DNA of 64,000 bases from positions 62,001 to 126,000 of the forward strand of contig NZ_ATTM01000008.1 in the NCBI RefSeq assembly GCF_000419685.1. Direction: 5' to 3'. Below, in pieces: positions 6,469-57,719 of this stretch. Made by a program: the position numbers and the translations under genes. A model generated the notes under the pieces. The model was not told where the DNA came from and did not search any database. It was given only the letters and a program-made list of their open reading frames with translations. This stretch comes from Flavobacterium antarcticum DSM 19726 (GTDB lineage Bacteria > Bacteroidota > Bacteroidia > Flavobacteriales > Flavobacteriaceae). The first letter of the stretch is position 1. Each line of letters starts with the position of its first letter.

Positions 6469-7094
6469 GCTTGCAGTAGTGAAACCAAAGCGACGGTATT
6501 ACTGATCGCTAATTTCTCAAAGATTCGGTTTTTATAGGTACTTACGGTGCTGGTTTGCAAATTGAGTTTGTTGGCAATTTCTAAATTCCCTTCTCCTTTT
6601 ACAAGCAAACGCGCAATTTCGATTTCACGGTTGGAAAGAATATCCAATGGATTGTCGGATTCCTTTTTTAAAGTCGCATTTATAATTTTCTGCTTGATAG
6701 CCTCGCTCATGTAGGTTCCGTCTTCCAGCATGGATTTAAAGGCTTTTTTAAATTCCGTTTCAGAACTTAATTTATTCAAATAACCTTCGGCACCTGCTTT
6801 TAAATAACGCATGGCGTACAATTCTTCTTCGTAAGCGGAGAATACTAAAATTTTAATTTCTGGATTGATAGCTTTTACGAGTTCAATCATTTGTACTCCT
6901 TTTCCTTCAGGAATAGAAATGTCTAAAACGAGTAAGTACACTGCGTTGTTGCGAAGTTGTGTTAATGCAGTTTCAAAATCGGCGGCGTGTAAAATGGTCA
7001 AGTCTTTGTAAGATTCTTTCAATATCATTGAAATGCCTTGTCTTACTACACTGTGATCATCGGCTAATAAAATGGTCTTCGATAAATTGGTCAT
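6444..7094 (-). CDS. NarL/FixJ-type response regulator with LuxR HTH
   Basis: 216 residues from the chosen ATG (an upstream ATG at 7118 would add 8). Receiver domain with the acidic pair in LLADDH, the phospho-acceptor Asp in LLVLDISIP and the conserved Lys in GYLNK, then a LuxR-type HTH near the C-terminus (LSNREIEIARLLVKGE... TVSTYKNRI). It would activate or repress transcription when phosphorylated. It is convergent with the kinase gene and the two coding regions overlap by 25 bases. The shorter start is preferred because a -7 element at 7127-7134 would leave almost no leader for the longer one. The longer start cannot be excluded. Confidence 0.9.
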   Translation of the reverse strand: MTNLSKTILLADDHSVVRQGISMILKESYKDLTILHAADFETALTQLRNNAVYLLVLDISIPEGKGVQMIELVKAINPEIKILVFSAYEEELYAMRYLKAGAEGYLNKLSSETEFKKAFKSMLEDGTYMSEAIKQKIINATLKKESDNPLDILSNREIEIARLLVKGEGNLEIANKLNLQTSTVSTYKNRIFEKLAISNTVALVSLLQAYDDSFSV

Positions 7095-7126
7095 CTTAAA
7101 ACTATTGTCTATATTCATAACTTTTT

Positions 7127-7134
7127 CAAAAATA
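7127..7134 (-). promoter_or_regulatory. -7 element for the response regulator
   Basis: On the minus strand this reads TATTTTTG, matching TAnnTTTG. It sits just upstream of the first in-frame ATG and about 33 bases upstream of the preferred ATG at 7094. The -33 element is weak. Confidence 0.45.
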
Positions 7135-7250
7135 CTGCAAAAACTTCAATTTATAACCAGTAGCCTTTAAATTATTACTAAATTAATATCGAATACTTTA
7201 AAAGAATAAGACGTATCTACTTTAAAGCCTATTTATTCCGCTAGAATCAT

Positions 7251-7258
7251 TATTTTTG
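7251..7258 (+). promoter_or_regulatory. -7 element for prfC
   Basis: TATTTTTG matches TAnnTTTG and lies 19 bases before the ATG at 7277. It overlaps an upstream in-frame TTG at 7256, so that TTG is unlikely to be the start codon. Confidence 0.5.
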
Positions 7259-7276
7259 CATCCAATAAAAAATACT

Positions 7277-8866
7277 ATGAGTTTTAATACAGAAATTGAC
7301 AGACGCCGAACCTTTGGAATTATTGCCCATCCCGATGCGGGTAAAACAACCTTAACTGAAAAGTTATTGCTTTTTGGAGGTGCGATTCAAGAAGCAGGTG
7401 CTGTTAAAAACAATAAAATCAAAAAAGGAGCTACTTCCGATTTTATGGAAATTGAACGCCAAAGAGGGATTTCAGTTTCAACTTCTGTATTGGCTTTTAA
7501 TTATAAAAATAAAAAAATAAACATCCTTGATACTCCTGGACACAAGGATTTTGCAGAAGACACCTTCAGAACTTTAACAGCAGTGGACAGCGTTATTGTG
7601 GTAGTCGATGTAGCAAAAGGAGTGGAAGAACAAACAGAAAAGTTAGTAGCGGTTTGCCGCATGCGAAACATTCCCATGATCGTCTTCATCAATAAATTAG
7701 ACCGAGAAGGAAAAGACGCTTTTGACTTGATGGACGAAGTGGAACAGAAATTAGGTCTTACAGTAACGCCGATGAGTTTCCCAATTGGTATGGGTTATGA
7801 TTTCCAAGGAATTTACAACCGATGGGAAAAGAACATTAATTTATTCAGTGGCGACAGCCGTAAAAACATCGAAGAAACGATTGCTTTTTCGGATGTAAAT
7901 AGTCCCGAATTAGATGGAATTGTGGGTGCAAAACCAGCCGCTCGTTTGCGCGAAGAATTGGAGTTGATTGACGAAGTCTATCCCGAATTTGATCGAGATG
8001 CTTACCTGAATGGTGATTTGCAACCCGTGTTTTTTGGTTCGGCTTTGAATAATTTCGGAGTTCGAGAGCTTTTAGACTGTTTCGTAGAAATTGCTCCTTC
8101 ACCCCGACCAAAAGAATCAGAAACGCGATTAGTTGATCCTAAAGAAGAAAAACTATCCGGTTTTATCTTTAAAATACACGCCAATATGGATCCAAAACAC
8201 CGCGATCGATTGGCATTCTTAAAAATTGTTTCGGGTACTTTTGAACGAAACAAACCGTATTACCACGTCCGTCAGAAGAAGAATTTCAAATTCTCAAGTC
8301 CCAATGCGTTCTTTGCTGAAAAGAAAGAAATTGTAGACATCTCATTTCCAGGCGATATTGTAGGATTGCATGATACCGGTAATTTCAAAATTGGCGATAC
8401 CTTGACCGAAGGTGAAATCATGAGTTTCAAAGGTATTCCAAGTTTTTCTCCAGAACACTTTAGGTACATTAATAATGCAGATCCTTTGAAAGCAAAACAA
8501 CTGGACAAGGGAATTGACCAATTGATGGACGAAGGTGTAGCCCAATTGTTCACTCTAGAAATGAACAATCGTAAGATTATTGGAACCGTTGGTGCCTTAC
8601 AATACGAAGTAATTCAATACCGATTAGAGCACGAATATGGTGCAAAATGTACTTACGAAAACTTCCCAGTGCACAAAGCTTGTTGGGTAAAACCCGATGA
8701 TGCAAAAAACGACGAGTTTAAAGAATTCAAACGAATCAAGCAGAAGTTTCTTGCCAAAGACAAATACGGTCAGCTGGTGTTTTTAGCCGATTCCGATTTT
8801 ACTATTCAAATGACAGTTGCTAAATACCCATCGGTTAAATTATTCTTTACGTCTGAATTAGATTAA
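7277..8866 (+). CDS. prfC: Peptide chain release factor 3 (RF3 GTPase)
   Basis: 529 residues, the usual length of RF3. The translational GTPase motifs are clear: AHPDAGKTT (G1), DTPGHKDF (G3) and NKLDR (G4), followed by domain II and an RF3-type C-terminal domain. RF3 uses GTP to recycle RF1 and RF2 from the ribosome after peptide release. The ATG at 7277 is chosen over an in-frame TTG at 7256 because that TTG lies in the -7 element and the family starts close to the IDRRRTFGIIAHPD motif. The CpsB-like gene follows after 22 bases on the same strand and is probably co-transcribed. Confidence 0.97.
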   Translation: MSFNTEIDRRRTFGIIAHPDAGKTTLTEKLLLFGGAIQEAGAVKNNKIKKGATSDFMEIERQRGISVSTSVLAFNYKNKKINILDTPGHKDFAEDTFRTLTAVDSVIVVVDVAKGVEEQTEKLVAVCRMRNIPMIVFINKLDREGKDAFDLMDEVEQKLGLTVTPMSFPIGMGYDFQGIYNRWEKNINLFSGDSRKNIEETIAFSDVNSPELDGIVGAKPAARLREELELIDEVYPEFDRDAYLNGDLQPVFFGSALNNFGVRELLDCFVEIAPSPRPKESETRLVDPKEEKLSGFIFKIHANMDPKHRDRLAFLKIVSGTFERNKPYYHVRQKKNFKFSSPNAFFAEKKEIVDISFPGDIVGLHDTGNFKIGDTLTEGEIMSFKGIPSFSPEHFRYINNADPLKAKQLDKGIDQLMDEGVAQLFTLEMNNRKIIGTVGALQYEVIQYRLEHEYGAKCTYENFPVHKACWVKPDDAKNDEFKEFKRIKQKFLAKDKYGQLVFLADSDFTIQMTVAKYPSVKLFFTSELD

Positions 8867-8888
8867 CGCGTTTAAAACCATCGTCCCA

Positions 8889-9626
8889 ATGCTTTTTTTC
8901 AATAAGAAAACAATTTTAAAAGATTTAATTCCCGACGATCACATTGATTTCCATTCGCATTTGTTGTTTGGGATTGACGACGGTGCGAAAACTTTTGACG
9001 ATACAGCAGGACTTGTACAATCGTTGATGAAATTTGGCATTAAACAGTTCATCACCACGCCTCACGTGATGCAACACGTTTGGGAAAACACCACGGAAAT
9101 CATTATCAACCGACAAAATGAAGTAAACGAATTGCTAAAACTCCAGCAAATTGACGTCACAATAAAAGCTGCTGCGGAATATTTAATGGACGACCATTTT
9201 GCAAAACTGTTCAAAAGTCAGCCTCTATTGACTTTGAAAGACAATTATGTATTGGTCGAAATGTCGTACATCAACGCGCCAATTCAGTTGTATGAAATTT
9301 TATTTGACTTACAAGTTGCCGGTTACAAGCCTGTTTTAGCACATCCAGAACGGTACAATTTCTATCACAATAATTTTGACGAATATAAGAAACTCAAAAA
9401 GCAGGGGTGTTTGTTTCAACTGAATTTACTTTCCGTAATGGGATATTATGGTGAAGGTGTGGCAAAAACAGCTCAGAAGTTATTGACACAAGGCATGATT
9501 GATTTTGCAAGTTCGGATACGCATCATCAGAAACACATCGCGGCTTTTGATGGAAAAGTGCTTTTAAAAGACATGAAACCTTTGCAAGAAGCAATTTCGA
9601 ACAGTGCGTTTTTCAAACAAAAATAA
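8889..9626 (+). CDS. CpsB/CapC-type PHP-domain tyrosine phosphatase
   Basis: 245 residues. PHP metal-binding motifs are visible: DFHSHLLFGIDDGAK near the N-terminus, TPHV, then HPERY and SDTHH towards the C-terminus. This is the metal-dependent tyrosine phosphatase family that counters BY-kinases controlling polysaccharide chain length or export. It follows prfC by 22 bases, some 6 kb from the polysaccharide operon, and no BY-kinase gene is in the window. A cytoplasmic enzyme is expected because no signal peptide is present. Substrate not determinable from sequence. Confidence 0.88.
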   Translation: MLFFNKKTILKDLIPDDHIDFHSHLLFGIDDGAKTFDDTAGLVQSLMKFGIKQFITTPHVMQHVWENTTEIIINRQNEVNELLKLQQIDVTIKAAAEYLMDDHFAKLFKSQPLLTLKDNYVLVEMSYINAPIQLYEILFDLQVAGYKPVLAHPERYNFYHNNFDEYKKLKKQGCLFQLNLLSVMGYYGEGVAKTAQKLLTQGMIDFASSDTHHQKHIAAFDGKVLLKDMKPLQEAISNSAFFKQK

Positions 9627-21093: not shown

Positions 21094-22086
21094 TTACTTC
21101 GGCGTATTAAATGCTAAACTACACCAACCCACAATTCTTCCAGCAGTTTCCGTTAATGCTTGCTTTTTATCAGCAGAAGTAATGATATTTGTCGCGCGAA
21201 TACTAATCAATAGTACCGTTACGGCATGCCATTTACAGCGATCTTTAAAATTAGGACTTGGATTTTTAACTCTCCAAACATACCAACCGTTGCGCACTAC
21301 CATTTTTCCGTATTGAAATTTATTTGGCCGTCCGGCGGGATCGTGGTAATGGCTCAATTGGGCACTTGTATTTACAAAAAGTTTGCCCATTTTTGCGACC
21401 CGAATTGTAAAATCGGCGTCTTCGTACAATCCATATCCTTCAAAATAAGCAGCGAATTGCAACGTCTCAAAAACTTCTTTTTTAAACGAGGAAACCCCTC
21501 CCATGAGTTGTTCTACCTCATATATTTTTCCGGAAGGCGGTAAAAAGCCTATACTGCGGCCGTGCGAATAATTAGAAGACCATCCTGGGGCACAATCCGA
21601 ATCCAAATGTAACTTTTTCCGAATTACAAATCGACTGCCGTCTTTGCGTTTGTAGCCGTCGTAAAAAAATTCATTTAGGCTGGGTTTGTAGTTATCCTCA
21701 ACTTTCTGCCACTGCACCTCGTTATTGATATAACCGCCTACTCCTAAGGCTTTGGGATGCAAACTATAAGTTTCTAGTAAATTTTCAAAATAATGGGTAT
21801 CTAAAACAGTGTCATCATCCAAAAACCCAATAATTTCAGTAGTAGAATTGACTCGCTCTATTCCGAAATTACGTTGTTTCGTTAATCCCCTGTCTTCAGG
21901 GTCTACTTTAAAATACACTAGATTCTTGTAGGATTTCGCGGCTAGAACTTCTTTAGTTAAATCATCAGGTGAACCATCAACAATTAATACCTCATCGGGA
22001 TACAGCGTTTGTTGTACTACCGAATCAAGCAGATCTGTTATTACTTTCGAACGTTTATAGGTACAAATGATAAGGGTTAGTTTCAT
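21094..22086 (-). CDS. Glycosyltransferase family 2
   Basis: 330 residues. GT-A fold: LTLIICTYKRSKVITDLLDSV at the N-terminus, LIVDGSPDD, then FLDDDTVLD (DxD metal and nucleotide binding) and a later GYGLYEDADFTIRV (acceptor-side ED motif). It is likely a cytoplasmic glycan-assembly transferase. The start overlaps the upstream gene by 4 bases. A 425-base gap follows. Sugar specificity unknown. Confidence 0.87.
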   Translation of the reverse strand: MKLTLIICTYKRSKVITDLLDSVVQQTLYPDEVLIVDGSPDDLTKEVLAAKSYKNLVYFKVDPEDRGLTKQRNFGIERVNSTTEIIGFLDDDTVLDTHYFENLLETYSLHPKALGVGGYINNEVQWQKVEDNYKPSLNEFFYDGYKRKDGSRFVIRKKLHLDSDCAPGWSSNYSHGRSIGFLPPSGKIYEVEQLMGGVSSFKKEVFETLQFAAYFEGYGLYEDADFTIRVAKMGKLFVNTSAQLSHYHDPAGRPNKFQYGKMVVRNGWYVWRVKNPSPNFKDRCKWHAVTVLLISIRATNIITSADKKQALTETAGRIVGWCSLAFNTPK

Positions 22087-23615
22087 TTTACTTTATTTAA
22101 TTCGGTCGCCCAAAAGACACTTTGCTTCCACTGCTTTTGAAACATTTCGTAATAGCGAAATGGATTTTTTATTTTTTGTGCTTTATAATATTTAAAAAAA
22201 AGTACAGATTTGTATCCTAAGATTTGTTGTGTCGTATTGTGCTTCATTTTATACAACATTATTGTAGGAGAAGGTTTAGGTTGGATTATTTCTTTACTCC
22301 ATTTTAAAACTGGTTTTGTCCTAAAGCCACCTATGGGAGCTTTTAAATGTACAATAACCAATTTAGGAACGTATATTACATCTATACCCACATTCCTTAA
22401 CTGCATTCCAAAATCACTATCTTCACCATATCCAAACTCTAACGCATTGCTAAACTGAACATCATTCAAGCAACGAGCATCTAAAAACGCATTTCCTGAA
22501 CCAAAAATCGCCGATTGATTCAATAAACTGCTTTTCATTTTTTCCTTTTTTTGCGGATAAAAGGTCGTAATACATTTAAATTTATAATGAAGCAAATACT
22601 GTAAAGCGTCCCTTATTAATGTAGATTCAAAACGATTGTCATCATCATTTAAAAAAAACCATTTACTTTTAACTTCTTCTAGTGCTAAATTACGAGCGTT
22701 ACAAGCACCTGCCCGGTGAGTAAAGATATGTTTGATTTCAAAGGGCCAATTTTCATTTTCAATATAGTCCAATTCGGATACGGAGTCCAGTAAAGGATTT
22801 TGCTCAACGATGATTACCCGAACAGGAAGATGCAATTGTGCCTTCAAATCAAGTAAAACATCGTGTAAATACTGCTTTCTTCCTATCGTTGGTATAATTA
22901 CGTCGATAGTTTCTTTACTTACATCTGACTTTATTTTTTCCGACTTAAAATCACAAGCAACATTATTAACGGAATGCTTTTTAACGAAGAATGTGTTCAA
23001 CACAGAAAAAAAAGGTACTTTTTTATCATGTAACAGTATATTTAATAACAACAAGTACACCCATATTACTTTATAATGTTGCTTCACAAATTTAAATAGT
23101 TGATTGAAATTTGCTTTTGGAAGAACTAACTTCGTAGTTGCTTTAAGTAGCTTAGGGTCGGAATAACAAAATAAGCCTAGAGGTTGGTATATCTTTGCAA
23201 TACTATTTAAACAATAATCAAAATCAGTCGCGTCCCAACTCCTTTCATCTGTTTGAAGTATAACAGTTGCTTTAATCCCTCCTACTAAACTACTCATTTG
23301 CCAAGTGGGATAAATTACTTTTTTAGAAACGTTGATAAAAGGGCTATCCTCAACATAACCGATAGTATCAGTTAAATAATTTTTGATTGGATTATAAGAC
23401 CGCATACTTCGTCCTGATTCAAATATACTACTACAATAATCCAAATCTATAATCGAACCTACATCTTCATGACTCCAAATAATAATTTTATTCGGAAATT
23501 GTAATGCTAAGGTATATACATTTTTCGCTATTGATAAACGGGAATTAAATGGAATTGAAGTATCATCTAAAATTATAGATGTTACTTCCTTGAAGTTATG
23601 CATTAGTAAAATCAT
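22083..23615 (-). CDS. Two-domain glycosyltransferase: unassigned N-terminal half plus GT2 domain
   Basis: 510 residues, much longer than a single GT2. Residues about 237-460 form a GT-A domain: DVIIPTIGRKQYLHDVL, VIIVEQN, RAGACNARNLAL and FFLNDDDNRF. Residues 1-235 resemble no domain I can name, although they include IIIWSHEDVG and a hydrophobic helix near 185-200. The N-terminal part could be a degenerate second transferase. It overlaps the next gene by 4 bases and lies 5 bases after the previous one. Confidence 0.8.
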   Translation of the reverse strand: MILLMHNFKEVTSIILDDTSIPFNSRLSIAKNVYTLALQFPNKIIIWSHEDVGSIIDLDYCSSIFESGRSMRSYNPIKNYLTDTIGYVEDSPFINVSKKVIYPTWQMSSLVGGIKATVILQTDERSWDATDFDYCLNSIAKIYQPLGLFCYSDPKLLKATTKLVLPKANFNQLFKFVKQHYKVIWVYLLLLNILLHDKKVPFFSVLNTFFVKKHSVNNVACDFKSEKIKSDVSKETIDVIIPTIGRKQYLHDVLLDLKAQLHLPVRVIIVEQNPLLDSVSELDYIENENWPFEIKHIFTHRAGACNARNLALEEVKSKWFFLNDDDNRFESTLIRDALQYLLHYKFKCITTFYPQKKEKMKSSLLNQSAIFGSGNAFLDARCLNDVQFSNALEFGYGEDSDFGMQLRNVGIDVIYVPKLVIVHLKAPIGGFRTKPVLKWSKEIIQPKPSPTIMLYKMKHNTTQQILGYKSVLFFKYYKAQKIKNPFRYYEMFQKQWKQSVFWATELNKVK

Positions 23616-23620
23616 GATAG

Positions 23621-24763
23621 TTAAATTAGATTTTTATAAAAAATAATATTTTGCTGTACTATTTTTTGAATATCAAAATTTTGCTTAACAAAGTCAAGCG
23701 CTTCCATTCCTATCTTTACCGATAAAGTGTCATTTTGTAGTACGGATATGATTCTATTTGCATACTCCTCATGATTCGAAGGATGTACTAAAAAACCACT
23801 TTTACCGTCTTCCATTAATTCTTGAGCCCAACCAAAGTCACTGTTTACAACCGGTTTTTGCATAGCCATGGCCTCAATGGTTACCATGCCTAATGTTTCA
23901 GCATAAGTGGGAAATAGGCAAACGTTTGAATTTTTTATATAGGCTTGCACATCGGAATAGGGGATTTTACCCAAATAGGTGACACAAAGTAAAGCTTCTT
24001 TTGAAAATTGTTGTTGGACTAAACTCCAGGTGGAATTAGAACCAGTTTGAATATCCGCCGAATCTCCACCAATTAAAACCAATTTAACTTCTGGCATCTC
24101 TTTTAATACCTTTTCAAAAATGATTGGCAATTCAAAAACTCCTTTTTTGCGTATAATAGTTCCTATGTAAAGCAACAACCCTTTTTCAAATTGGAGTGGT
24201 GAATCGTTCTGAAAGCGCTTTAAATTCAATCCGTTATGTACCGTTTTTATTTTAGCAGATGAGAGTCCAAATAACTTAGCCGAAACTTCTCCCGCAAATT
24301 TTGTCGGTGCAACATAACCCTGCGCATTTCGCACAGCTAAGGTTTCATAAAAACGATTCTTCCACTTCTGCTTCCGTTTTTCAAGATGACAAAAATAAGT
24401 ATCGCTTCCATGAAATCGAATCACTAAAGGAACTTTAAAATTCATAAAGGCGGTTACACCAGTCCAGTCTGCGGCTTCAATTACATCAATTTTATCAGCT
24501 TCAATAACTTTGTTGCAATAATTTTGAATATGTTTTCTGTAAAAAAACCACTTGCCCAAACGATAGCTTTTGTTTTCAATAAAGTGATAAGTAATTTCTT
24601 TTTCTTGAAAAACTGCTGCTTTGGACTGACCATAGATAAACAGCGTAACCTGTACTCCTTTAGATACTAAAGCCTCTGCTAAATTTTTAATACTGTTTCC
24701 TAAACCCGCAGAATGGTTCACTTTGGGATGGGGGTACTCGGGAATTAGAAAAGCGATATGCAT
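23621..24763 (-). CDS. Glycosyltransferase family 4
   Basis: 380 residues. N-terminal FLIPEYPHPKVNHSAGLGNSI resembles the GT4 opening with a glycine-rich loop; the C-terminal half has GTIIRKKGVFELP, LIGGDSADIQ, FPTYAETLGMVTIEAMAMQKPVV (donor-binding E-x7-E) and GWAQELMEDGKSGFLV. The stop of the previous gene and this start share one base (24763), so they are tightly coupled. Donor and acceptor unknown. Confidence 0.87.
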   Translation of the reverse strand: MHIAFLIPEYPHPKVNHSAGLGNSIKNLAEALVSKGVQVTLFIYGQSKAAVFQEKEITYHFIENKSYRLGKWFFYRKHIQNYCNKVIEADKIDVIEAADWTGVTAFMNFKVPLVIRFHGSDTYFCHLEKRKQKWKNRFYETLAVRNAQGYVAPTKFAGEVSAKLFGLSSAKIKTVHNGLNLKRFQNDSPLQFEKGLLLYIGTIIRKKGVFELPIIFEKVLKEMPEVKLVLIGGDSADIQTGSNSTWSLVQQQFSKEALLCVTYLGKIPYSDVQAYIKNSNVCLFPTYAETLGMVTIEAMAMQKPVVNSDFGWAQELMEDGKSGFLVHPSNHEEYANRIISVLQNDTLSVKIGMEALDFVKQNFDIQKIVQQNIIFYKNLI

Positions 24764-26169
24764 TAGGTTATAATTTTACTGATAGCATTCCAAATCTTCT
24801 CTGATGCCTTTGTCGGCTCACTTCCCACAATCACATCAAACCATTTTTTACCTACAGGTACGTTAGTCTTTTTTCCATCTAAAATTGACTTAACTATACT
24901 TGTCAGCTCCTTTTTATTCTGTACGAAAAGTGCAGCGTCTTTTGACGGCATAGAACGAAAGTGGATGTATTTATAATTTTGTCCAATATCTCGAATTCCT
25001 TTCGCGAGTTGCGGTTGTTCATAATCAAAAAATAAACACGATTTATTATGTGCAACAAAATCAAACACCATTGAAGAAGCAATATTTCCAACAAATTCGG
25101 TATGATGGCAAATATTAGCTTGTAAAGCAAAATCATCTTTAGTAGGCATAATTTCATTCCAACTTTTACCTATGGGGCGCCATAAAGGATCAATGGAAAC
25201 AATTACATCTTTATATTTTGCCAATATGGTATCATACCGACCTGTAAAGTCTACTGGACATTTCCGATAAATAATTCCTAAATTATAATCTTGTTTATTT
25301 AATTCACGAACAGAAAGTGCTAAATCTTCTAAATAATACTGATCTAAAGGTGAAGTGGTCGTATCATCTCCCGAAAAGCAAATGTATTTTTTATGGGTTT
25401 CTAAATTGTGCGTTTTATAAAAATCTGCTTTAGTTTGCAATAAGCTTGTGTCAAAATGACTTTCAAATTGCGGCGTACCTGTGACAAATACCTGTTCTGA
25501 TTTGACATAAGGACAATATTTCAATAATTCGTTTTTCATGTAATCACTCCACACAAAATAAAAATCAGGCTCAATTAAAGTAGTGGCTTTAGGCAAATTA
25601 TCCCACGAAAAAATGAAGGAAACGGTAGGAATTCCTAAATCTTGAGCGGCTAAAATCGGTGCAATTGCTTGCGAAGGTCTTGGGTTGGTGCAAAAAATTA
25701 CTTCTGGACGGCTTTCTTCTAGTTGCTTTTTACAGTAATCATATTTAGAAGTAGAACGTTCTAAATTTTTAATTTGAGTTCTAATGGAATTAACTCCCTC
25801 CTCATTCGATTTTGTGGCTACTAAAAAATCCACGTAAAGACTTTTAAAGGCATTTTTAATTCCTTTGTAGGACTGTGGGAAATTATAAGTGTTGTAGACC
25901 GTCTCGTTGAATTTTTTATCAAAAACATTCAGCTCGCATCTCTTTCGAGCACGTGTATACACTGTAGTCATCGGATGTATTTCTTGATTTTCGATTTTCA
26001 ATTCTTCAAAACCCAATTCGGATTTAATTTGAAAAGGGGTATTATTCCAATAACAAATTTCAAAACCCATTGCAGTTCCAATTGCATTAAAATTTGTCAG
26101 TGCAAAATTCCGCAATCCGACGCCATCAGGCAAAAATACAAAAGCTTTTTTACTCATATCTTGCTTCAT
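24763..26169 (-). CDS. GT-B-like surface carbohydrate biosynthesis protein (glycerophosphotransferase/glycosyltransferase-like)
   Basis: 468 residues, not confidently assigned. Two Rossmann-like halves are suggested: RPEVIFCTNPRPSQAI and IPTVSFIFSWDNLP, then VFVTGTPQF and a C-terminal block with ICHHTEFVGNIASSMVFDFV, similar to the CDP-glycerol glycerophosphotransferase and UDP-GlcNAc epimerase-like GT-B folds. It could transfer a sugar or a polyol phosphate. It overlaps the pyruvyltransferase gene by 4 bases. A start five codons in (MSKKAFVFLPDG) is also plausible. Confidence 0.6.
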   Translation of the reverse strand: MKQDMSKKAFVFLPDGVGLRNFALTNFNAIGTAMGFEICYWNNTPFQIKSELGFEELKIENQEIHPMTTVYTRARKRCELNVFDKKFNETVYNTYNFPQSYKGIKNAFKSLYVDFLVATKSNEEGVNSIRTQIKNLERSTSKYDYCKKQLEESRPEVIFCTNPRPSQAIAPILAAQDLGIPTVSFIFSWDNLPKATTLIEPDFYFVWSDYMKNELLKYCPYVKSEQVFVTGTPQFESHFDTSLLQTKADFYKTHNLETHKKYICFSGDDTTTSPLDQYYLEDLALSVRELNKQDYNLGIIYRKCPVDFTGRYDTILAKYKDVIVSIDPLWRPIGKSWNEIMPTKDDFALQANICHHTEFVGNIASSMVFDFVAHNKSCLFFDYEQPQLAKGIRDIGQNYKYIHFRSMPSKDAALFVQNKKELTSIVKSILDGKKTNVPVGKKWFDVIVGSEPTKASEKIWNAISKIIT

Positions 26170-26984
26170 AATTTAAATGGACACGCACGCATTAAACCTT
26201 CACACAGTTCCATCAATCGTTCTTGTTTAGGCAAGTTAGGGTATTTTTTGAATAAGTTTTCCATTTGCTCTTCTGTAAAACGAGTCAATTTTACTTCTGG
26301 TCTGTAAAATTGAAGTCCCACAGATTCCATATAATCTTGGTATTTAATATCATCTCCAAAAACTTTATCGGAAAATTTCTGCCAGACTGCTGGAATTCCG
26401 TACGCATGTGCAATAATGATGCCGTGCAACGAAGAAGAAATTATAGATTTGCATTGCAAAAATTCGATTGTTTTTGCTTCAATATCATTTGTCATCAGGT
26501 CTATTAAATGGACATCTGGTTGATCTTTAAACCAATCGGCAACTATTGAATAGTCATTATAATGCGGTACAATGCCATACTTGAATTTTTTATCAACTCG
26601 TGGTTTAAAAAATTGTGGCATTAATAGTGCAGGATCCCCGTAAACCTCAGGAACTTGATAACCAGATTTCATCAGATAAGCCCTAGTCTGTGGTCCTCGA
26701 ACCGCAGCAAATTTGGCTTTTTTAATTTTAATCTCTTGATTAATGATACCGCTTCCCCAAACAATACATTTGTCGTTTACATGATGGATAATACTTCCTA
26801 TTGTCACATAGATAGGTTGAGACCAATCTAAGAAAGAAAACTTTTTTGGCCATGCAAAAACAATTTTTCTACCAGATATTTTCTGCACTAAATACCTTCC
26901 CAACGCATCCCCATAATTTTCTTTCGTTTTGCCTTGAATTATTTTTTCATTCCACCAAAATAGACGGATCCGATCCTGAAACAT
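26166..26984 (-). CDS. Polysaccharide pyruvyl transferase family protein
   Basis: 272 residues. ENYGDALGRYLV near the N-terminus, WGSGIINQEIKIK, AVRGPQTRAYL and VYGDPALLMP, then SSLHGIIIAHAYGIPAVW, are the hallmark motifs of PS_pyruv_trans (WcaK/CsaB-like) proteins. They transfer a ketal-linked pyruvate from PEP onto a sugar, adding negative charge. It lies one base after the synthase gene and overlaps the next gene by 4 bases. Together with the nonulosonate genes it suggests an acidic polymer. Confidence 0.88.
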   Translation of the reverse strand: MFQDRIRLFWWNEKIIQGKTKENYGDALGRYLVQKISGRKIVFAWPKKFSFLDWSQPIYVTIGSIIHHVNDKCIVWGSGIINQEIKIKKAKFAAVRGPQTRAYLMKSGYQVPEVYGDPALLMPQFFKPRVDKKFKYGIVPHYNDYSIVADWFKDQPDVHLIDLMTNDIEAKTIEFLQCKSIISSSLHGIIIAHAYGIPAVWQKFSDKVFGDDIKYQDYMESVGLQFYRPEVKLTRFTEEQMENLFKKYPNLPKQERLMELCEGLMRACPFKL

Positions 26985-26985
26985 A

Positions 26986-27861
26986 TTATACTTTTTTATT
27001 TTTCAACTTGTCGCGCTGCACTTGCTCAATGGGTAAAATATCTTGATTTTTAAATTGTAAAGCTTGATAAACCGCTTTTAAATCGCGAGAAAGCTTACGC
27101 AATCCTTCTGGTTCTAGCGAAGCCGCATGATCGGTGCCTTTCCAAGTACGGTCTAATGTATAGTGTCGCTCCACTATATTTGCACCCAAAGTATAAGCAG
27201 CTACATCCACAGCAATTCCCAAGTGATGTCCTGAAAAACCAATGTGTTTTACTTTATTTCCATATTTTTGTATCAATAAGTTAATATCCAGTAAACACAC
27301 ATCTGTAAAAGGAACGGGATAACCCGAAGTACAGTTGTACAATACTAAATCCTTATTCCTTCCTTTGGATTCAAAAAAAGCAACTAATTCATCGATTTCA
27401 TCTTTAGTGGTCATTCCCGTCGAAATATGGATTTCTCCTGGATAGTTGGTACACAACCATGATAACATTTCAAAATTATTGTTACAAGCCGATGGGATTT
27501 TAATAAATTCGGGGTTCAATGACGCCATTTCTTGAGCTGAAGTAGTATCCCAAACCGACGTGGAATACACAATACCCAGTTCTTCACAATACGCCTTTAA
27601 TTCAGCATGCTGATCTACGTTAAATTCTAGATACTCGCGATGAGCACCGTAAGTATCACCGTAAGAATTTGAAGGATTTGGATGAGGAGCATTGTATTGT
27701 TCTTCAGTCAGTAGCTCAACATTATTCCTCTTCTGAAATTTAACTGCATCCGCATTACAAAATATTTTTGCAATCTTAATGAGTTCCTTTGCCAGGCTTA
27801 TCTCTCCTTTGTGATTGCAACCGATTTCGGCAATAACATAAGGTTTTTTATAGTGTGTCAT
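26986..27861 (-). CDS. neuB: NeuB-family nonulosonate synthase lacking the SAF domain
   Basis: 291 residues. The NeuB barrel is clear: YVIAEIGCNHKG, DAVKFQKR, STSVWDTTSAQ, FIKIPSACNNN, HISTGMTTKDEI, GFSGHHLGIAVDVAA and IVERHYTLDR. These enzymes condense PEP with a six-carbon N-acyl-mannosamine-like or mannose-type sugar (free or 6-phosphate) to give a nine-carbon sialic, legionaminic or Kdn-type acid. Bacterial NeuB proteins usually have about 340-350 residues with a C-terminal SAF/antifreeze-like domain; this one stops where that domain would start (ends QRDKLKNKKV). The CMP-transferase/phosphatase gene is immediately upstream in the operon. Which acid is made is not resolved. Confidence 0.88.
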   Translation of the reverse strand: MTHYKKPYVIAEIGCNHKGEISLAKELIKIAKIFCNADAVKFQKRNNVELLTEEQYNAPHPNPSNSYGDTYGAHREYLEFNVDQHAELKAYCEELGIVYSTSVWDTTSAQEMASLNPEFIKIPSACNNNFEMLSWLCTNYPGEIHISTGMTTKDEIDELVAFFESKGRNKDLVLYNCTSGYPVPFTDVCLLDINLLIQKYGNKVKHIGFSGHHLGIAVDVAAYTLGANIVERHYTLDRTWKGTDHAASLEPEGLRKLSRDLKAVYQALQFKNQDILPIEQVQRDKLKNKKV

Positions 27862-27948
27862 GATTTTATTTATTAACGCAAAGTAAACAAAAAATTATTG
27901 AAACTGCAGGTTCTGTCTAGTGCCGGTAGATAAGTTAAATTAAAAGTA

Positions 27949-29106
27949 TTAAAATCGATTATTGTATTTCATAATCCATTCGGAGATTTCTCGTATTGCC
28001 CCGCTACCAGAGCTACTTGTCAATACAAAGTCAACATGCTGTTTTACGATTTGAGTTGCATTTGCAGGCGCAAAAGACCATCCTACGGTACACAAGCAAG
28101 CTAAATCGTTTACGTCGTCTCCTACGTAAGCTAAATTTGACCAGCTCGTTTGCTGTTGCTGTATAAAATGCTGCATAAAAGAATATTTATCCTTCACTCC
28201 TAAAAACACATGTTGAATCTGTAATTTCTCCATTCGTTTCTGTACAAGTCTAGATTTTTCAGAGGTAATAACAACGACTTCTACCTCATTTTGACGTAGA
28301 ATTTCTAATCCCATACCGTCTCTCATATCGAATTTTTTAGTAAGCTCTCCATTAGAATCATAATGAACACCTCCATCTGTAAAAACACCATCAACATCCA
28401 GCACTAAATAGTCAAGGCGAGTTTGCTTTTTTATATTTTTTTGTCGGGTAGCCAAAAGTTGCTCTACGATGCTCCAGTCGCTCATACTATCTATTTCCAT
28501 TAACGTTTCCTCAGGCATTTCAATCAACCCTATTGTATTGCTTACACGATTTTTAGAATTCAGAAAGGCCTCTTTTGTTGATGCATAAATAGCACCATTT
28601 TCAATGAGTAGTCCTTTAAAATCCTGCCTTCTAGGGCGGTTAAATACATCGTAATTTTGGGCTGTACCGTCTTGATTCCAAATAAAGCGGTGGGTTTTAA
28701 CTACACTTAAAACAGATGTTTTATTTTCGTCTGTAATTTTTTGCAAAGCATTATTGATGTCTTCAGACCTCGTAAGCGGTGAAGTAGCTTGTAATAAACA
28801 GAAAACATCGAACTCATAATTGATTAGTTCCGCACATTCTAACATTGCACTTTCTGTCGAAGCACTATCATCTGCATTCGCATCACTTCTTAATAGTCCT
28901 TTTACTTTTGATGTCCATGTGTACTCTTTCTGAATATACTCTAAAATTTCAACATCATCTGTAAAAACAATAACCTCCTCTAAATCAGAAAAAACAGCAG
29001 CGGACAAAACCCATGAAAACAGAGGTCGTCCGAGCATTTTTTTCTTGTTTTTTTTAGGAATTCCTTTTGAACCTTTGCGCAAGGGTATGATGGCTGTTTT
29101 TTTCAT
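27949..29106 (-). CDS. neuA: CMP-nonulosonate cytidylyltransferase fused to a KdsC-like HAD phosphatase
   Basis: 385 residues, two domains. Residues 1-225 are an acylneuraminate cytidylyltransferase (IPLRKGSKGIPKKN, LLQATSPLTRSEDI, GAIYAS). Residues about 231-385 are a type C0 HAD phosphatase: LDVDGVFTDG (nucleophile Asp237, Asp239), ITSEKS and GDDVNDLACL. One polypeptide could therefore dephosphorylate a nonulosonate 9-phosphate and activate it with CTP. The layout matches vertebrate CMAS (cytidylyltransferase plus KdsC-like C-terminus), and Bacteroides has a separate Kdn-9-phosphate phosphatase of this HAD type. The neighbouring NeuB supplies the substrate. The domain calls are secure; the phosphorylated route is inference. 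Confidence 0.9.
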   Translation of the reverse strand: MKKTAIIPLRKGSKGIPKKNKKKMLGRPLFSWVLSAAVFSDLEEVIVFTDDVEILEYIQKEYTWTSKVKGLLRSDANADDSASTESAMLECAELINYEFDVFCLLQATSPLTRSEDINNALQKITDENKTSVLSVVKTHRFIWNQDGTAQNYDVFNRPRRQDFKGLLIENGAIYASTKEAFLNSKNRVSNTIGLIEMPEETLMEIDSMSDWSIVEQLLATRQKNIKKQTRLDYLVLDVDGVFTDGGVHYDSNGELTKKFDMRDGMGLEILRQNEVEVVVITSEKSRLVQKRMEKLQIQHVFLGVKDKYSFMQHFIQQQQTSWSNLAYVGDDVNDLACLCTVGWSFAPANATQIVKQHVDFVLTSSSGSGAIREISEWIMKYNNRF

Positions 29107-29143
29107 AATTTAGTATTGTAGTTTAAAATTCCGTTACTAATCA

Positions 29144-30325
29144 TTATTTGCTTAGATATTTTTTTAATTTAGCTTTTAAACTATTTTTCCAGCGAATATA
29201 ATTGTATATATAACGCTCTAGTTGATGACTAGCAGTTATTCTAAAATCATTTTCAATTAAAAATGACAAAACATTTTTATCTACTAAACTATTGTTTTTG
29301 TTTGCAAGTAACTTTCCGATGTATTTGCTTTTGTTTAATATATAAAATTCATTATTAAAAACTTTATTAAAATCTTCCAACCTTCCTAGAACATCTAATG
29401 TAACCTGCGTTCTCATACACTTTTCGCATTTAGAACAATTAATTTTTCCCTTCGCGTTGGTAGGATCGACACAAACGTCTAAATAATCAAACGCATACCG
29501 ATAATTAGAAACCAGACTTGTTCTTTCTTCCCGAGTTTTATCCGATAAACTAGAATAAAACTTAGTAGATTCCGTACTAATCATTTGGAGCGTTAATAAA
29601 TCATATTTATCTGAAATGAGATTGTTAATTTCAAATGTATCAAAACGAAAAGCTGACGCGTAATAATAGGTTTTAATAGATTTCTGAAGGTTTAAAATAC
29701 ACGACATATTTCTTAAAGTGTGCGTTGATACAAATTTCATTTTCAACAAATCACTAAGGTTGGTATCTACTTTAACTAAAGGCAATTTTATTTCTTTTGC
29801 AAAACGAGATATTCTTTGCGAGCGCATTTTGAATACATTTCTCCCATATTTTCCTCCATAATCGCTGTGCGAACCGGCATTGAGATAGGTCAAATAAGCA
29901 ATTTTCAAGTCTGTCTTAATATAAGCATGTTCAATAAGAGTAGCGAAAGAATCAATACCACATGAAATACCTGTAGCCGCTTGAGCAGAATGTTTAGAAA
30001 CAATCTGCTCATTTTCGTGTTCAGCGTAAATTTTTATTGTTACAAATTCTTTAAATGCAAGACATAATGCAGGTATTAAATAATGGTTTAGCTGATATTT
30101 CAAACGTGCGGAAATCGTACCTACCACATAAATATCTTCTCCCAATTTTAAAGCTAATAACAATAGACCTACTACAAACGCATCTGACTGTTCGAAGACA
30201 ATATCGTCTTTTAATTGCATGTCAAACTCATACCATAATATATCCGAATAATGATTAGTCTCAAATTTAGACCTTAAAATAACTTTATCACCCACAATCT
30301 CTAATTCTGGTGGAAATATTTTCAT
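29144..30325 (-). CDS. PP-loop ATP-pyrophosphatase (QueC-like) of unknown function in a polysaccharide operon
   Basis: 393 residues. A PP-loop is visible at about 118-128 (TGISCGIDSFA, variant of SGGxDS). Four cysteines near the C-terminus (C285, then C297-x2-C300-x2-C303 in INCSKCEKC) resemble the zinc site of QueC. The first 115 residues are an extra N-terminal domain I do not recognise. PP-loop enzymes adenylate a carboxylate or amide to install nitrogen or sulphur. In surface-sugar pathways, PP-loop amidotransferases such as PseA make acetamidino groups, so a role in decorating a nonulosonate or uronic acid is plausible but unproved. It lies 37 bases before the NeuA-HAD gene and overlaps the preceding GT4 gene by 4 bases. 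Confidence 0.7.
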   Translation of the reverse strand: MKIFPPELEIVGDKVILRSKFETNHYSDILWYEFDMQLKDDIVFEQSDAFVVGLLLLALKLGEDIYVVGTISARLKYQLNHYLIPALCLAFKEFVTIKIYAEHENEQIVSKHSAQAATGISCGIDSFATLIEHAYIKTDLKIAYLTYLNAGSHSDYGGKYGRNVFKMRSQRISRFAKEIKLPLVKVDTNLSDLLKMKFVSTHTLRNMSCILNLQKSIKTYYYASAFRFDTFEINNLISDKYDLLTLQMISTESTKFYSSLSDKTREERTSLVSNYRYAFDYLDVCVDPTNAKGKINCSKCEKCMRTQVTLDVLGRLEDFNKVFNNEFYILNKSKYIGKLLANKNNSLVDKNVLSFLIENDFRITASHQLERYIYNYIRWKNSLKAKLKKYLSK

Positions 30326-31452
30326 GCGAATATTTTTATCTCATTATATGCTTTTAAAACTTTATTTTTTAAAAAATCAAATGATAGTAAAGGACTTAAA
30401 ATTTCTTTATTATATTTTAATCCTTCACAATAGTTTTCTTTTTTTAAAGCTTTTAAAATTTGTAATTGCATGTTTCGTTTGTCCAGCAAAAGTCCATTAA
30501 ACCCATCTGTAATAATTTCAGAAGTAGCTCCTCCAGGATTTGATTGTAAAGGTAAGCAACCACAACAAATTGCTTCTAGCAAAGTGTTAGGCATTCCATC
30601 CGATTGGCTATAACCAATGTAGATCTTGGCTTTTCCCATTAGTTCCAGAACATTTTTATGTGGCAATCTTTGTTTAATTAAAAGATTAAGACCTGTATAT
30701 TTTTTTTCATTATTTACATGCTTTATGACTTCATCGTTTGCACCAAAGACAACAATTTCATAACCTGCTAATTGTTTTTTCATTAAAGCTAATATTTCCA
30801 ATACACTTATACAGTCGCCATGTACATCTTGATAACCTTTTACTACTATTAATTTTCTTTGATTATGTGGAGTAGATAAGGTTTGAATTAGTTTTAAATT
30901 AAAACCACCACCACCAGGAAAAATACCAAGCAATTTTCCTCTGAATCCAAATTCTTTTGCTATTTCATAATCTCTTTTACAATCTGTAAAAATATAATCG
31001 ATAAATGGAAGCGTATCGCTTATGACCCGTTTTCCGAGTAGTGTATTTTTTCGTGCATATAAATCGCTACCCCAAGAAGAATAAATCCATTTTACACTAG
31101 TACTTCTTTTCATTACTTCTGCTATTGGCGAACAAGCTAAGTGTAAGGCAAAACTATGCACTACATCTGGTTGAACTTCTAATAAATATTCTTCAAACTT
31201 CTTTGCTGTATCGTACTCATTATGCTTTTGTAAAAATTTATACAATCTAGGAAATCGCTTTTTTATAAAAGTTCTTCCTGCATAATTCCGCTTCAGTTTC
31301 CAATTTACTTTTTGTTGCACCCAATTTATTCTCTCCACAGTTTGACTCATGCCGCTGATATCAAACCAGTACACTTCATGACCCGAATCCTGCAGTTGTT
31401 CGGTCCATCGGAAAAAATGAAGACTTGGTATTGATACCATTAAAATTTTCAT
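30322..31452 (-). CDS. Glycosyltransferase family 4
   Basis: 376 residues. N-terminal MKILMVSIPSLHFFRWTEQL, DVVHSFALHLA and IYSSWGSDLY, then the C-terminal donor domain with LLIKQRLPHKNVLELMG, YIGYSQSDGMPNTLLEAIC and NPGGATSEIITDGFNGLLL. Typical GT-B retaining transferase. Start and stop overlap both neighbours by 4 bases. It lies next to the nonulosonate genes but is not a recognised sialyltransferase family. Confidence 0.87.
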   Translation of the reverse strand: MKILMVSIPSLHFFRWTEQLQDSGHEVYWFDISGMSQTVERINWVQQKVNWKLKRNYAGRTFIKKRFPRLYKFLQKHNEYDTAKKFEEYLLEVQPDVVHSFALHLACSPIAEVMKRSTSVKWIYSSWGSDLYARKNTLLGKRVISDTLPFIDYIFTDCKRDYEIAKEFGFRGKLLGIFPGGGGFNLKLIQTLSTPHNQRKLIVVKGYQDVHGDCISVLEILALMKKQLAGYEIVVFGANDEVIKHVNNEKKYTGLNLLIKQRLPHKNVLELMGKAKIYIGYSQSDGMPNTLLEAICCGCLPLQSNPGGATSEIITDGFNGLLLDKRNMQLQILKALKKENYCEGLKYNKEILSPLLSFDFLKNKVLKAYNEIKIFA

Positions 31453-32522
31453 GCTGTGAAATTTATAATAACACTTATTTGATTTGTATGTCTATCAAAC
31501 GAGTAATCATAAGGACAGTTTCGGAAATTAGTAATGATTTCCTCTAAAATCAAATTATTTACAACTTCCATACTGTAGAACGTATCGTGCTTTTTTCTGA
31601 CAAAACGTTTTAATGTGTTTTTAAAAACTTCCTTTTTATGCTCTTCTTTAATTTTTATTTTAACGACCTGGTTTTTAAAATTCTTAAATTGAGCCAACAA
31701 TGCTTTTATTGTTACAACAGAATTTGTATATTGCACGGTTGCAACTGGATTTTTTAATTCTTCATAAGCTTTTATCGCTGTAGGCATTCCCCATTCCATA
31801 CTTTGATTCACTAACGTTATTTTTGCTTTTCGAGTTTGAACCATGTAGGCATGATTAATTCTTTCTAACGACGAATGATAAGGTTGTTTACTTAAATTAC
31901 TTCGATACGTTTTAGGATGCCATTGGTGTTTTACAAGAACTTCAGTATCATAAAACTCACATGTATAGCCTGCATTTTGCATCCGAATGTGCACATCCGT
32001 ATCTTCAGCTCCCCATCCTTGATAAAATTCATCAAATCCATTAATTGCTTTTAAAGCCGCAGTAGGATAAAGAGTCATTCCAGTCGCCTCTTTATCAGAT
32101 GTAAAAGCTATATCGTAAGCGCCAAAAGTTGTTTCTTTAAGACTTTCCTGTTTATTAATAAATCCAACCTTAAAATATATTACTTTTTCAAAGTCCGAAC
32201 TAGAAATTATTTTTTTCATGAAATTTGGATGAAAAATCATATCAATATCACCCACAAAAAAAAAGGAATAACTCGCTTTTTTTAAAGCTATATTAATAGC
32301 TCTACATTTACTCCAAAGTTGTCCATAAGTTGGGCAAGTAATAAATTGTATTTGTGAATAATTTTGTATCAGACTTCGCAACTCTTCTAAATGACTCTCA
32401 TTGGAACCATAATCCACTAAAAACCATTCAAAATCAGTATTACTTTGATCCGCTAATGAATCTAAACAATTTTTAATAATACGAATGTCACGATTTCGAT
32501 TGGTTAATACTAGAGTTATCAT
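31449..32522 (-). CDS. Glycosyltransferase family 2 with galactosyltransferase-like C-terminal motif
   Basis: 357 residues. GT-A start LVLTNRNRDIRIIKNCL, then FFVGDIDMIFHP (DxD) and GFDEFYQGWGAEDTDVHIRM, the Glyco_transf_7C-like acceptor motif seen in chondroitin-synthase and galactosyltransferase families. The C-terminal 110 residues are lysine-rich and unassigned. It overlaps the downstream GT4 gene by 4 bases and sits 2 bases behind the upstream gene. Confidence 0.85.
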   Translation of the reverse strand: MITLVLTNRNRDIRIIKNCLDSLADQSNTDFEWFLVDYGSNESHLEELRSLIQNYSQIQFITCPTYGQLWSKCRAINIALKKASYSFFFVGDIDMIFHPNFMKKIISSSDFEKVIYFKVGFINKQESLKETTFGAYDIAFTSDKEATGMTLYPTAALKAINGFDEFYQGWGAEDTDVHIRMQNAGYTCEFYDTEVLVKHQWHPKTYRSNLSKQPYHSSLERINHAYMVQTRKAKITLVNQSMEWGMPTAIKAYEELKNPVATVQYTNSVVTIKALLAQFKNFKNQVVKIKIKEEHKKEVFKNTLKRFVRKKHDTFYSMEVVNNLILEEIITNFRNCPYDYSFDRHTNQISVIINFTA

Positions 32523-57057: not shown

Positions 57058-57690
57058 TTACGGAATATTTAGAAATTTATGTGTTTGCAAAGAAACCCTC
57101 CATTTTGGATTATTCATTACGTAATCTACAATAAGTGGCGTCATTTCGTCTTTTTTGCTCCACTCCGGTTGTAAAAATAAAATCGCGTTCGGATTGACTT
57201 TTTCTGCTTGTTCTTCTGCGAAAATAAAGTCGTGCTTGTTGAAAATAATTACCTTCAACTCGTGTGCTATTTCGTAAACCGTTTTTGTGGGTAATTTATT
57301 TTTCTTTGGCGAAAGACAAATCCAATCCCAAGTTCCTGAAAGTGGATAAGCACCTGAAGTTTCAATATGTACTTTCCGTCCGTTCTCTTTTAGCTTTTGC
57401 GTCAGCAAGGTCATGTCCCAAGTTAAGGGTTCGCCTCCAGTGACCACCACCGTATCGGAATGTTTAGAAGCATTCGCAACAATCGTGTCTACATCTGTTG
57501 GCGGATGCAAATCCGGATTCCAACTTTCCTTTACGTCGCACCAGTGGCAACCAACATCACAACCGCCCACTCTAATGAAATAAGCTGCAGTTCCCGTATG
57601 GTATCCTTCCCCTTGAATTGTATAAAACTCCTCCATCAACGGCAACATTGCTCCTTTTTCTACGGCTACTTGTATTTCTTTTGCTAACAT
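57058..57690 (-). CDS. queE: 7-carboxy-7-deazaguanine synthase
   Basis: 210 residues from the ATG at 57690. Radical SAM motif C-x3-C-x2-C is present in GCDVGCHWCDVKESW, after EEFYTIQGEGYHTG. VVTGGEPL and HIETSGAYPLSG are further QueE/NrdG-like motifs. It forms CDG from 6-carboxytetrahydropterin in queuosine synthesis. A longer frame to 57714 would start inside the -7 element at 57712-57719. The other queuosine genes are not here, except that the PP-loop protein at 29144 is QueC-like in its zinc site. Confidence 0.94.
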   Translation of the reverse strand: MLAKEIQVAVEKGAMLPLMEEFYTIQGEGYHTGTAAYFIRVGGCDVGCHWCDVKESWNPDLHPPTDVDTIVANASKHSDTVVVTGGEPLTWDMTLLTQKLKENGRKVHIETSGAYPLSGTWDWICLSPKKNKLPTKTVYEIAHELKVIIFNKHDFIFAEEQAEKVNPNAILFLQPEWSKKDEMTPLIVDYVMNNPKWRVSLQTHKFLNIP

Positions 57691-57711
57691 TTTAAATTTT
57701 AAATAAGGGGG

Positions 57712-57719
57712 CAAAGATA
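57712..57719 (-). promoter_or_regulatory. -7 element for queE
   Basis: On the minus strand TATCTTTG matches TAnnTTTG, 22 bases before the ATG at 57690. Confidence 0.45.

Follow-up and report, generated by a model that had tools for sequence, protein, structure and literature searches.

A QueC/QatC-like PP-loop protein encoded in a variable slot of a nonulosonate-glycan cluster of Flavobacterium antarcticum

The analyzed 64,000-nucleotide stretch of Flavobacterium antarcticum DNA (hereinafter, the window) contains a gene for a 393-residue PP-loop protein (29144..30325, minus strand), which is an optional member of a conserved nonulosonate-glycan cluster. By sequence comparison, the protein is a member of a separate family, nameless in the libraries searched, that is neither QueC, nor QatC, nor a WbpG/PseA amidotransferase. 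We propose, with moderate confidence, that it is an ATP pyrophosphatase with QueC-type metal ligands and a QatC-like architecture, acting as an optional glycan tailoring enzyme that would form an amide from a carboxylate.

The gene starts with ATG and is read from the minus strand, the plus strand of the same interval being full of stops. It is a real gene: full-length homologues from five further Flavobacteriaceae genomes, along with a homologue from another family of the class, place it beyond chance. Its start overlaps the stop of the upstream gene for a GT4-type glycosyltransferase (GT4a, 30322..31452, minus; PF00534, E 9e-14) as ATGA, and 37 bases separate its end from the gene for a NeuA-HAD fusion (27949..29106, minus), so that both the coupling and the spacing given in the earlier note were seen. 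The fusion consists of a PseF-like cytidylyltransferase part and a KdsC/KDN-9-phosphatase-like part; among NCBIfam models, TIGR01670 matched it above cut-off and others below. The same strand encodes a GT2-type glycosyltransferase with a Glyco_transf_7C part (GT2a, 31449..32522), a short, 291-residue NeuB-type nonulosonate synthase (26986..27861; TIGR03569, E 3e-59, below cut-off), a polysaccharide pyruvyl transferase family protein (PPT, 26166..26984; PF04230, E 1e-14) and a BFO_1060-type glycosyltransferase-like protein (GTx, 24763..26169; NF046086, E 2e-8, below cut-off, with no Pfam match). The recurrent nonulosonate-glycan cluster as a whole occupies positions 21094-32522 and has a variable slot before NeuA.

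An AlphaFold2 model of the PP-loop protein (pLDDT 87.5, pTM 0.86) has the HUP alpha/beta/alpha fold that the earlier note had anticipated; the model is confident but predicted, not solved, and the fold class, HUP/PP-loop, is firm. Three regions were distinguished in it: an N-terminal domain of approximately residues 1-112 (29990..30325, minus; three strands, two helices, strand, helix, strand), a HUP core of approximately residues 113-317, and C-terminal helices up to residue 393; the extra N-terminal domain on a 393-residue chain was thus described correctly before. The core carries the variant PP-loop SCGIDS, whose residue numbers, 121-126, were right as well (29948..29965, minus), and a Cys4 site from C285 to R305 (29411..29473, minus) with the pattern Cx11CxxCxxC, ending in NCSKCEKCMR. 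The cysteines of the protein are at positions 88, 122, 209, 285, 297, 300, and 303.

In a second-look structural alignment, the best match was QatC (9y02; Z 14.7, rmsd 4.7, 300 aligned residues, model 1-378 against chain 6-457), a nearly full-length correspondence that the earlier note did not contain. It was followed by QueC (3bl5; Z 12.1, rmsd 3.1, 174 aligned) and Cap9 (9nto; Z 11.4, rmsd 3.0, 168 aligned), and after this group by MnmA (Z 9.6, rmsd 3.1, 151 aligned) and LarE (Z 9.5, 146 aligned); PP-loop enzymes filled the list, with Z from 8.1 to 14.7, mostly across model residues 112-310. Foldseek's own ranking of PDB entries had TilS at the top (E 8e-4) and Cap9 in seventh place, QatC and QueC being outside the best 50 matches listed. 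When predicted viral structures were searched with the model, the top five matches were all named QueC. The N-terminal domain searched alone yielded no confident solved relative, with no QatC among the 50 matches listed; its best rows, reverse-transcriptase RNase H regions (Z 5.3, rmsd 3.3, 84 aligned), were too weak for an RNase H-like assignment. The N-terminal part of the predicted model is matched to QatC in the whole-chain alignment, and homology of this domain is putative.

Searched alone, the protein matched nothing in Pfam or PADLOC (E up to 1), in PHROGs (E up to 0.001), or among PDB sequences (E up to 10), and only two chance rows, far below cut-off, came from NCBIfam. A PDB profile search yielded nothing but chance rows to Toll-like receptors. 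A profile of 25 family members scored 94% against QueC over 181 columns, from the PP-loop to the Cys4 site, and 85% against QatC over the N-terminal domain and the PP-loop; values for other families were 87% for MnmA, over 74 columns around the PP-loop, 62% for AsnB, 48% for GuaA, and 6% for ArgG. A profile restricted to close relatives favored neither QueC (10%) nor QatC (17%), both falling below MnmA (83%). Among 20 members scanned against NCBIfam, an asparagine synthase model matched three (best E 0.0038), QatC matched three (best E 0.12, with E up to 1 considered), and QueC models matched one of the 20 each. PF06508 appeared in three of ten relatives scanned, below cut-off (best E 0.0023), and in some relatives the Cys4 region matched DUF6395 (PF19932), for which the literature search found no paper, weakly and below cut-off. 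The QatC model NF041925 had no match in the F. antarcticum genome. As to the HMM search against known PP-loop families suggested in the earlier note, no Pfam, NCBIfam, PADLOC, or PHROGs model claims the protein, and its relatives give only sub-cut-off QueC rows. Taken together, the structural, profile, and NCBIfam comparisons do not place the protein by sequence in QueC or QatC, though its HUP fold class is firm. A literature search by title and abstract opening, with subscription papers mostly outside its scope, found no description of the family.

Nine positions are invariant in all 25 aligned members: G123, D125, R265, C285, N296, C297, C300, K302, and C303. These include the four C-terminal cysteines that had been likened to those of QueC, spaced C(x)11CxxCxxC here vs. 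C(x)8CxxCxxC in QueC; zinc binding at this site is inferred only. The loop SCGIDS departs from the superfamily pattern SGGxDS in its second position (residue 122). This residue is Gly in all 11 distal members; among the 14 close and mid ones, it is Cys in 10 and Ala or Leu in four. The motif WG(S/G)xP is present in 11/11 distal members vs. 0/14 close and mid ones, while C209 is found in the six close members and is not kept in the mid group. R205-N206 of the sequence THTLRN (201-206) recalls the RN of the QueC motif VPxRN. Of two QueC substrate motifs given in PMC13329287, YPDC occurs in none of the 25 family rows vs. all six QueC controls, and YxQxHxxE is absent from all 25 aligned members; hence, the substrate is not read as in QueC. 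YPDC is reported to be absent from QatC also (PMC13329287). The previous view that the protein is not an ordinary QueC agrees with these data, as well as with the lack of a Pfam or TIGR QueC match and with a position that is not beside queE.

The gene is rare. When 397 genomes of the host's bacterial family, Flavobacteriaceae, were searched with the single protein (E <= 0.001), seven matched: that of F. antarcticum, five with full-length homologues (29-46% identity, five different genera), and one (G112) whose match, to another protein, was rejected as a chance one; the gene is thus present in six of 397 genomes, its own included. A phylum sample of 395 genomes contained it in two, the second being G464, from another family of the class (26% identity). 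A profile search of the order retrieved five of 395 genomes: F. antarcticum, G010, G830 with a fragment, and G133 and G220 with remote members carrying SGGLDS, WGS(R/S)P, and CxxCxxC; the G133 copy is flanked by a gene for a protein of polysaccharide-export type on one side and one for a member of the pyruvyl-transferase family on the other. Named relatives were found in Ulvibacter litoralis, whose 46% identical copy is situated between GT4a and GT2a, on plasmids of Paracoccus yeei and Gloeothece citriformis, and on a plasmid of the haloarchaeon Halomontanus rarus; the last match is weak alone (E 0.07), but the motifs are present in this protein, which falls into the distal group of the tree. 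More than 13 loci on viral contigs contain family members. Profiles join the close members with the mid and distal ones at 100 and 99.85%, respectively. In the tree of 25 members, 14 close and mid members split from 11 distal ones, with many forks inside the first group unresolved. The underlying alignment left out L039, L042, the truncated L049, near-identical duplicate loci, and L026-L028.

All six Flavobacteriaceae loci lie among glycosyltransferase genes, in line with the glycan-operon setting noted earlier. In the five that bear NeuB (the window, L002, L060, L061, and L063), the PP-loop gene adjoins GT2a or is one gene away from it, and in four of them it abuts GT4a; the sixth, L062, is a uronate cluster with genes for two UDP-sugar dehydrogenases and two pyruvyl-transferase homologues, with no NeuB found within 20 kb. 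As a control, GT4a was searched in 395 genomes of the family; 59 matched at E <= 1e-50, four of them carrying the PP-loop gene, and 40 loci, two of which were shorter than 20 kb, were taken from the other 55. The 40 control loci contained NeuB in 37 cases, NeuA in 32, GT2a in 35, and the PP-loop gene in none; the single-protein search found no match to the PP-loop protein in these 40 genomes, one of which, G133, holds its remote distal-group member elsewhere. The gene order recurring in the clusters is GT2a-GT4a-NeuA-NeuB-PPT-GTx-GT4b, and the slot before NeuA is occupied elsewhere by genes for a GT10 fucosyltransferase (L113), an MBOAT acyltransferase (L143), or an epimerase (L130).

The earlier note had implied that the enzyme is tied to NeuA-HAD and to the nonulosonate, and these ties were not supported. 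NeuA-HAD adjoins the PP-loop gene in only two of the six loci, and its co-occurrence was dropped as a clue to the substrate. Since NeuB is also present in 37 of 40 comparable clusters without the PP-loop gene, the nonulosonate link is a property of the cluster rather than proof of substrate, and L062, with its dehydrogenases and no detected NeuB, likewise speaks against it. The pyruvyl transferase was rejected as a specific partner as well, a homologue being found close to the gene in 10 of 28 examined loci vs. 28 of 40 controls (27 of 40 with stricter blastp labels). Compared with the window, L063 has 80% identical NeuB and 59% identical NeuA but a PP-loop protein of only 30% identity, whereas L002, L060, and L061 have NeuB near 30% and PP-loop proteins of 42-44%. 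These clashing similarities suggest transfer of the gene between clusters with different nonulosonate products, and a substrate that need not be the nonulosonate. An asparagine-synthase-like gene is present in two of the same clusters (L002, 16049-17743, by Pfam; L061, 2689-4398, by similarity) and also in control L121; therefore, amide formation in L002 and L061 may have two enzymes.

Relatives outside the Flavobacteriaceae clusters have diverse neighbors. On L035, a contig with a UvsX-like gene, a class-V aminotransferase gene is followed by the PP-loop gene and then by genes for an FkbM methyltransferase and a pyruvyl-transferase homologue. The cassette of PP-loop, FkbM, and pyruvyl-transferase genes is shared by two phage-like contigs (L035, 4824-8429, with the aminotransferase, and L034, 1518-4119) and possibly alters the host surface sugar. 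L033 encodes a fusion of the PP-loop part with an Asp/Asn hydroxylase-like part, beside an alanine racemase and a TupA-like ATP-grasp protein. The N-terminal parts fused in L029 and L042 resembled a pyruvyl transferase by eye, but Pfam (L042) and a home-made profile (both) were negative, and this assignment was rejected. The G464 copy (L064), which adjoins a gene for an NADH dehydrogenase-type subunit, has no recognized glycan gene in its vicinity, and this counts against the glycan reading. One viral-collection contig, L032, carries two tandem family copies (6773-7936 and 7902-9059).

Among the additions considered earlier, of nitrogen, sulfur, or a nitrile, an amide-type bond appears the likeliest. 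QueC is reported to adenylate a carboxylate, which ammonia converts to an amide and then to a nitrile, and Cap9 to couple a carboxylate with an amine (PMC13329287, PMC13279940). The adenylation-amidation reading follows from this family resemblance, as the reactions of QueC and Cap9 both create a C-N bond at a carboxylate, and the first half-reaction of QueC/Cap9 applied to a glycan acid would be the most economical reading. ATP would be bound at the S-x-G-x-D-S loop; a carboxylate on a sugar nucleotide, a lipid-linked oligosaccharide, or a substituent (a uronate, the nonulosonate C1, or a pyruvyl ketal) would be adenylated; and an amine or ammonia would attack the adenylate to give an amide, AMP, and PPi. 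Zinc binding, ATP use, the carboxylate substrate, and the amide product are all inferred here, and the enzyme probably decorates the sugar chain as an optional extra. It is a long shot that the family forms a widespread branch of the QueC/QatC fold joining carboxylates to amines on surface glycans, a counterpart of protein deazaguanylation, in which 7-carboxy-7-deazaguanine or a similar base might even serve as the acid, or a sugar nitrile might result; such an acid or nitrile could fit, as the host family keeps QueE but seems to be without QueC.

The nearest overall architecture, that of QatC, together with relatives near phage tail genes (before a tail sheath gene in L048, approximately 4 kb from a minor tail protein in L031, and after a large protein with short tail-fiber-like matches in L029), would suit an enzyme that conjugates a carboxylate to the N-terminus of a protein, e.g., a glycosyltransferase or a secreted carrier. 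Cap9 modifies a protein, and QatC is believed to do likewise. However, no QatB, QatD, or QueE homologue was found among the 125 neighboring ORFs of seven loci, six of which are glycan clusters, and the base-binding YPDC is missing, so we regard this alternative as unlikely. Also unlikely is the formation of an acetamidino group from an N-acetyl sugar by a functional analogue of WbpG/PseA, even though a PP-loop and a Cys4 site do occur here inside a nonulosonate cluster and the nonulosonate of Tannerella forsythia is reported to bear an acetamidino group (PMC6120980). The difference from WbpG/PseA seen earlier is borne out by the cysteines of the solved enzyme LpNASAT, reported at positions 44, 47, 79, and 82 (PMC10607449) vs. 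285-303 here; moreover, the amidotransferase motif CxxCxn[GN]xCxxC is absent, only C88 lying ahead of the PP-loop, and no NCBIfam match to N-acetyl sugar amidotransferase-type families was obtained.

Sulfur transfer to a glycan carboxylate or carbonyl, with C122 and C209 as catalytic cysteines, would explain the frequency of Cys at the first position among close and mid members and its presence at the second in the six close ones, and LarE and MnmA are the structural runners-up after the QueC group; but residue 122 is replaced by Gly throughout the distal group and by Ala or Leu in four other members, C209 is not kept in the mid group, and the Cys4 site is QueC-like, which makes this reaction distinctly improbable. 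Finally, the window contains a QueE homologue (57058-57714, minus) approximately 27 kb from the PP-loop gene. QueC (TIGR00364) exceeded the cut-off in none of 60 genomes of the host family, with one weaker 205-residue candidate in G019; the host family apparently has QueE without QueC. A PF06508 search of seven genomes gave 42 rows, 14 of which, inspected by eye, were ArgG, MnmA, GuaA, AsnB, or CysD-like. With a QueE homologue in all 60 genomes and no QueC row at E 1e-5 in the F. antarcticum genome, the PP-loop enzyme might be taken for the missing QueC, yet a gene restricted to six of 397 genomes, devoid of YPDC and situated in a glycan operon, can hardly play this role.

Base synthesis and, in defence, protein modification are established roles of the QueC fold. 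A family that differs in sequence but shares the overall architecture, found in bacterial glycan clusters and in phages, offers a new, testable route into the chemistry of this fold and leads one to expect a glycan modification not described so far. Operon neighbors alone, in this case NeuA-HAD, mislead on the substrate, the gene behaving like a mobile extra within a conserved cluster.

N-acetyl sugar amidotransferases, with which PseA is grouped, resemble the PP-loop protein in combining a PP-loop and a Cys4 site in a surface-sugar setting (WbpG, WbuX, LpNASAT; PDB 8WEX), but the Cys4 site of LpNASAT (residues 44-82) is reported to lie ahead of the PP-loop region (PMC10607449). QueC (PF06508, TIGR00364; PDB 3bl5) agrees with it in the HUP core and in how the four cysteines are ordered, but is only about 220 residues long vs. 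393 and has the VPxRN motif, absent here. In Cap9 of type IV CBASS (PDB 9nto), the core and the Cys4 fold are alike, but the protein of approximately 185 residues is reported to retain a YxDC motif and to be encoded beside a CD-NTase gene (PMC13329287). QatC of the qatABCD defence system (NF041925; PDB 9y01/9y02), whose reaction is described as unresolved (PMC13279940), likewise has a QueC-type core, an added N-terminal domain, C-terminal helices, and four C-terminal cysteines; it differs in the reported cysteine variant C(x)19CGxCxxRR (PMC13329287) vs. Cx11CxxCxxC, in the TTHP motif, absent here, and in the loop, which is SGGxDS there and SCGIDS in the protein of F. antarcticum.
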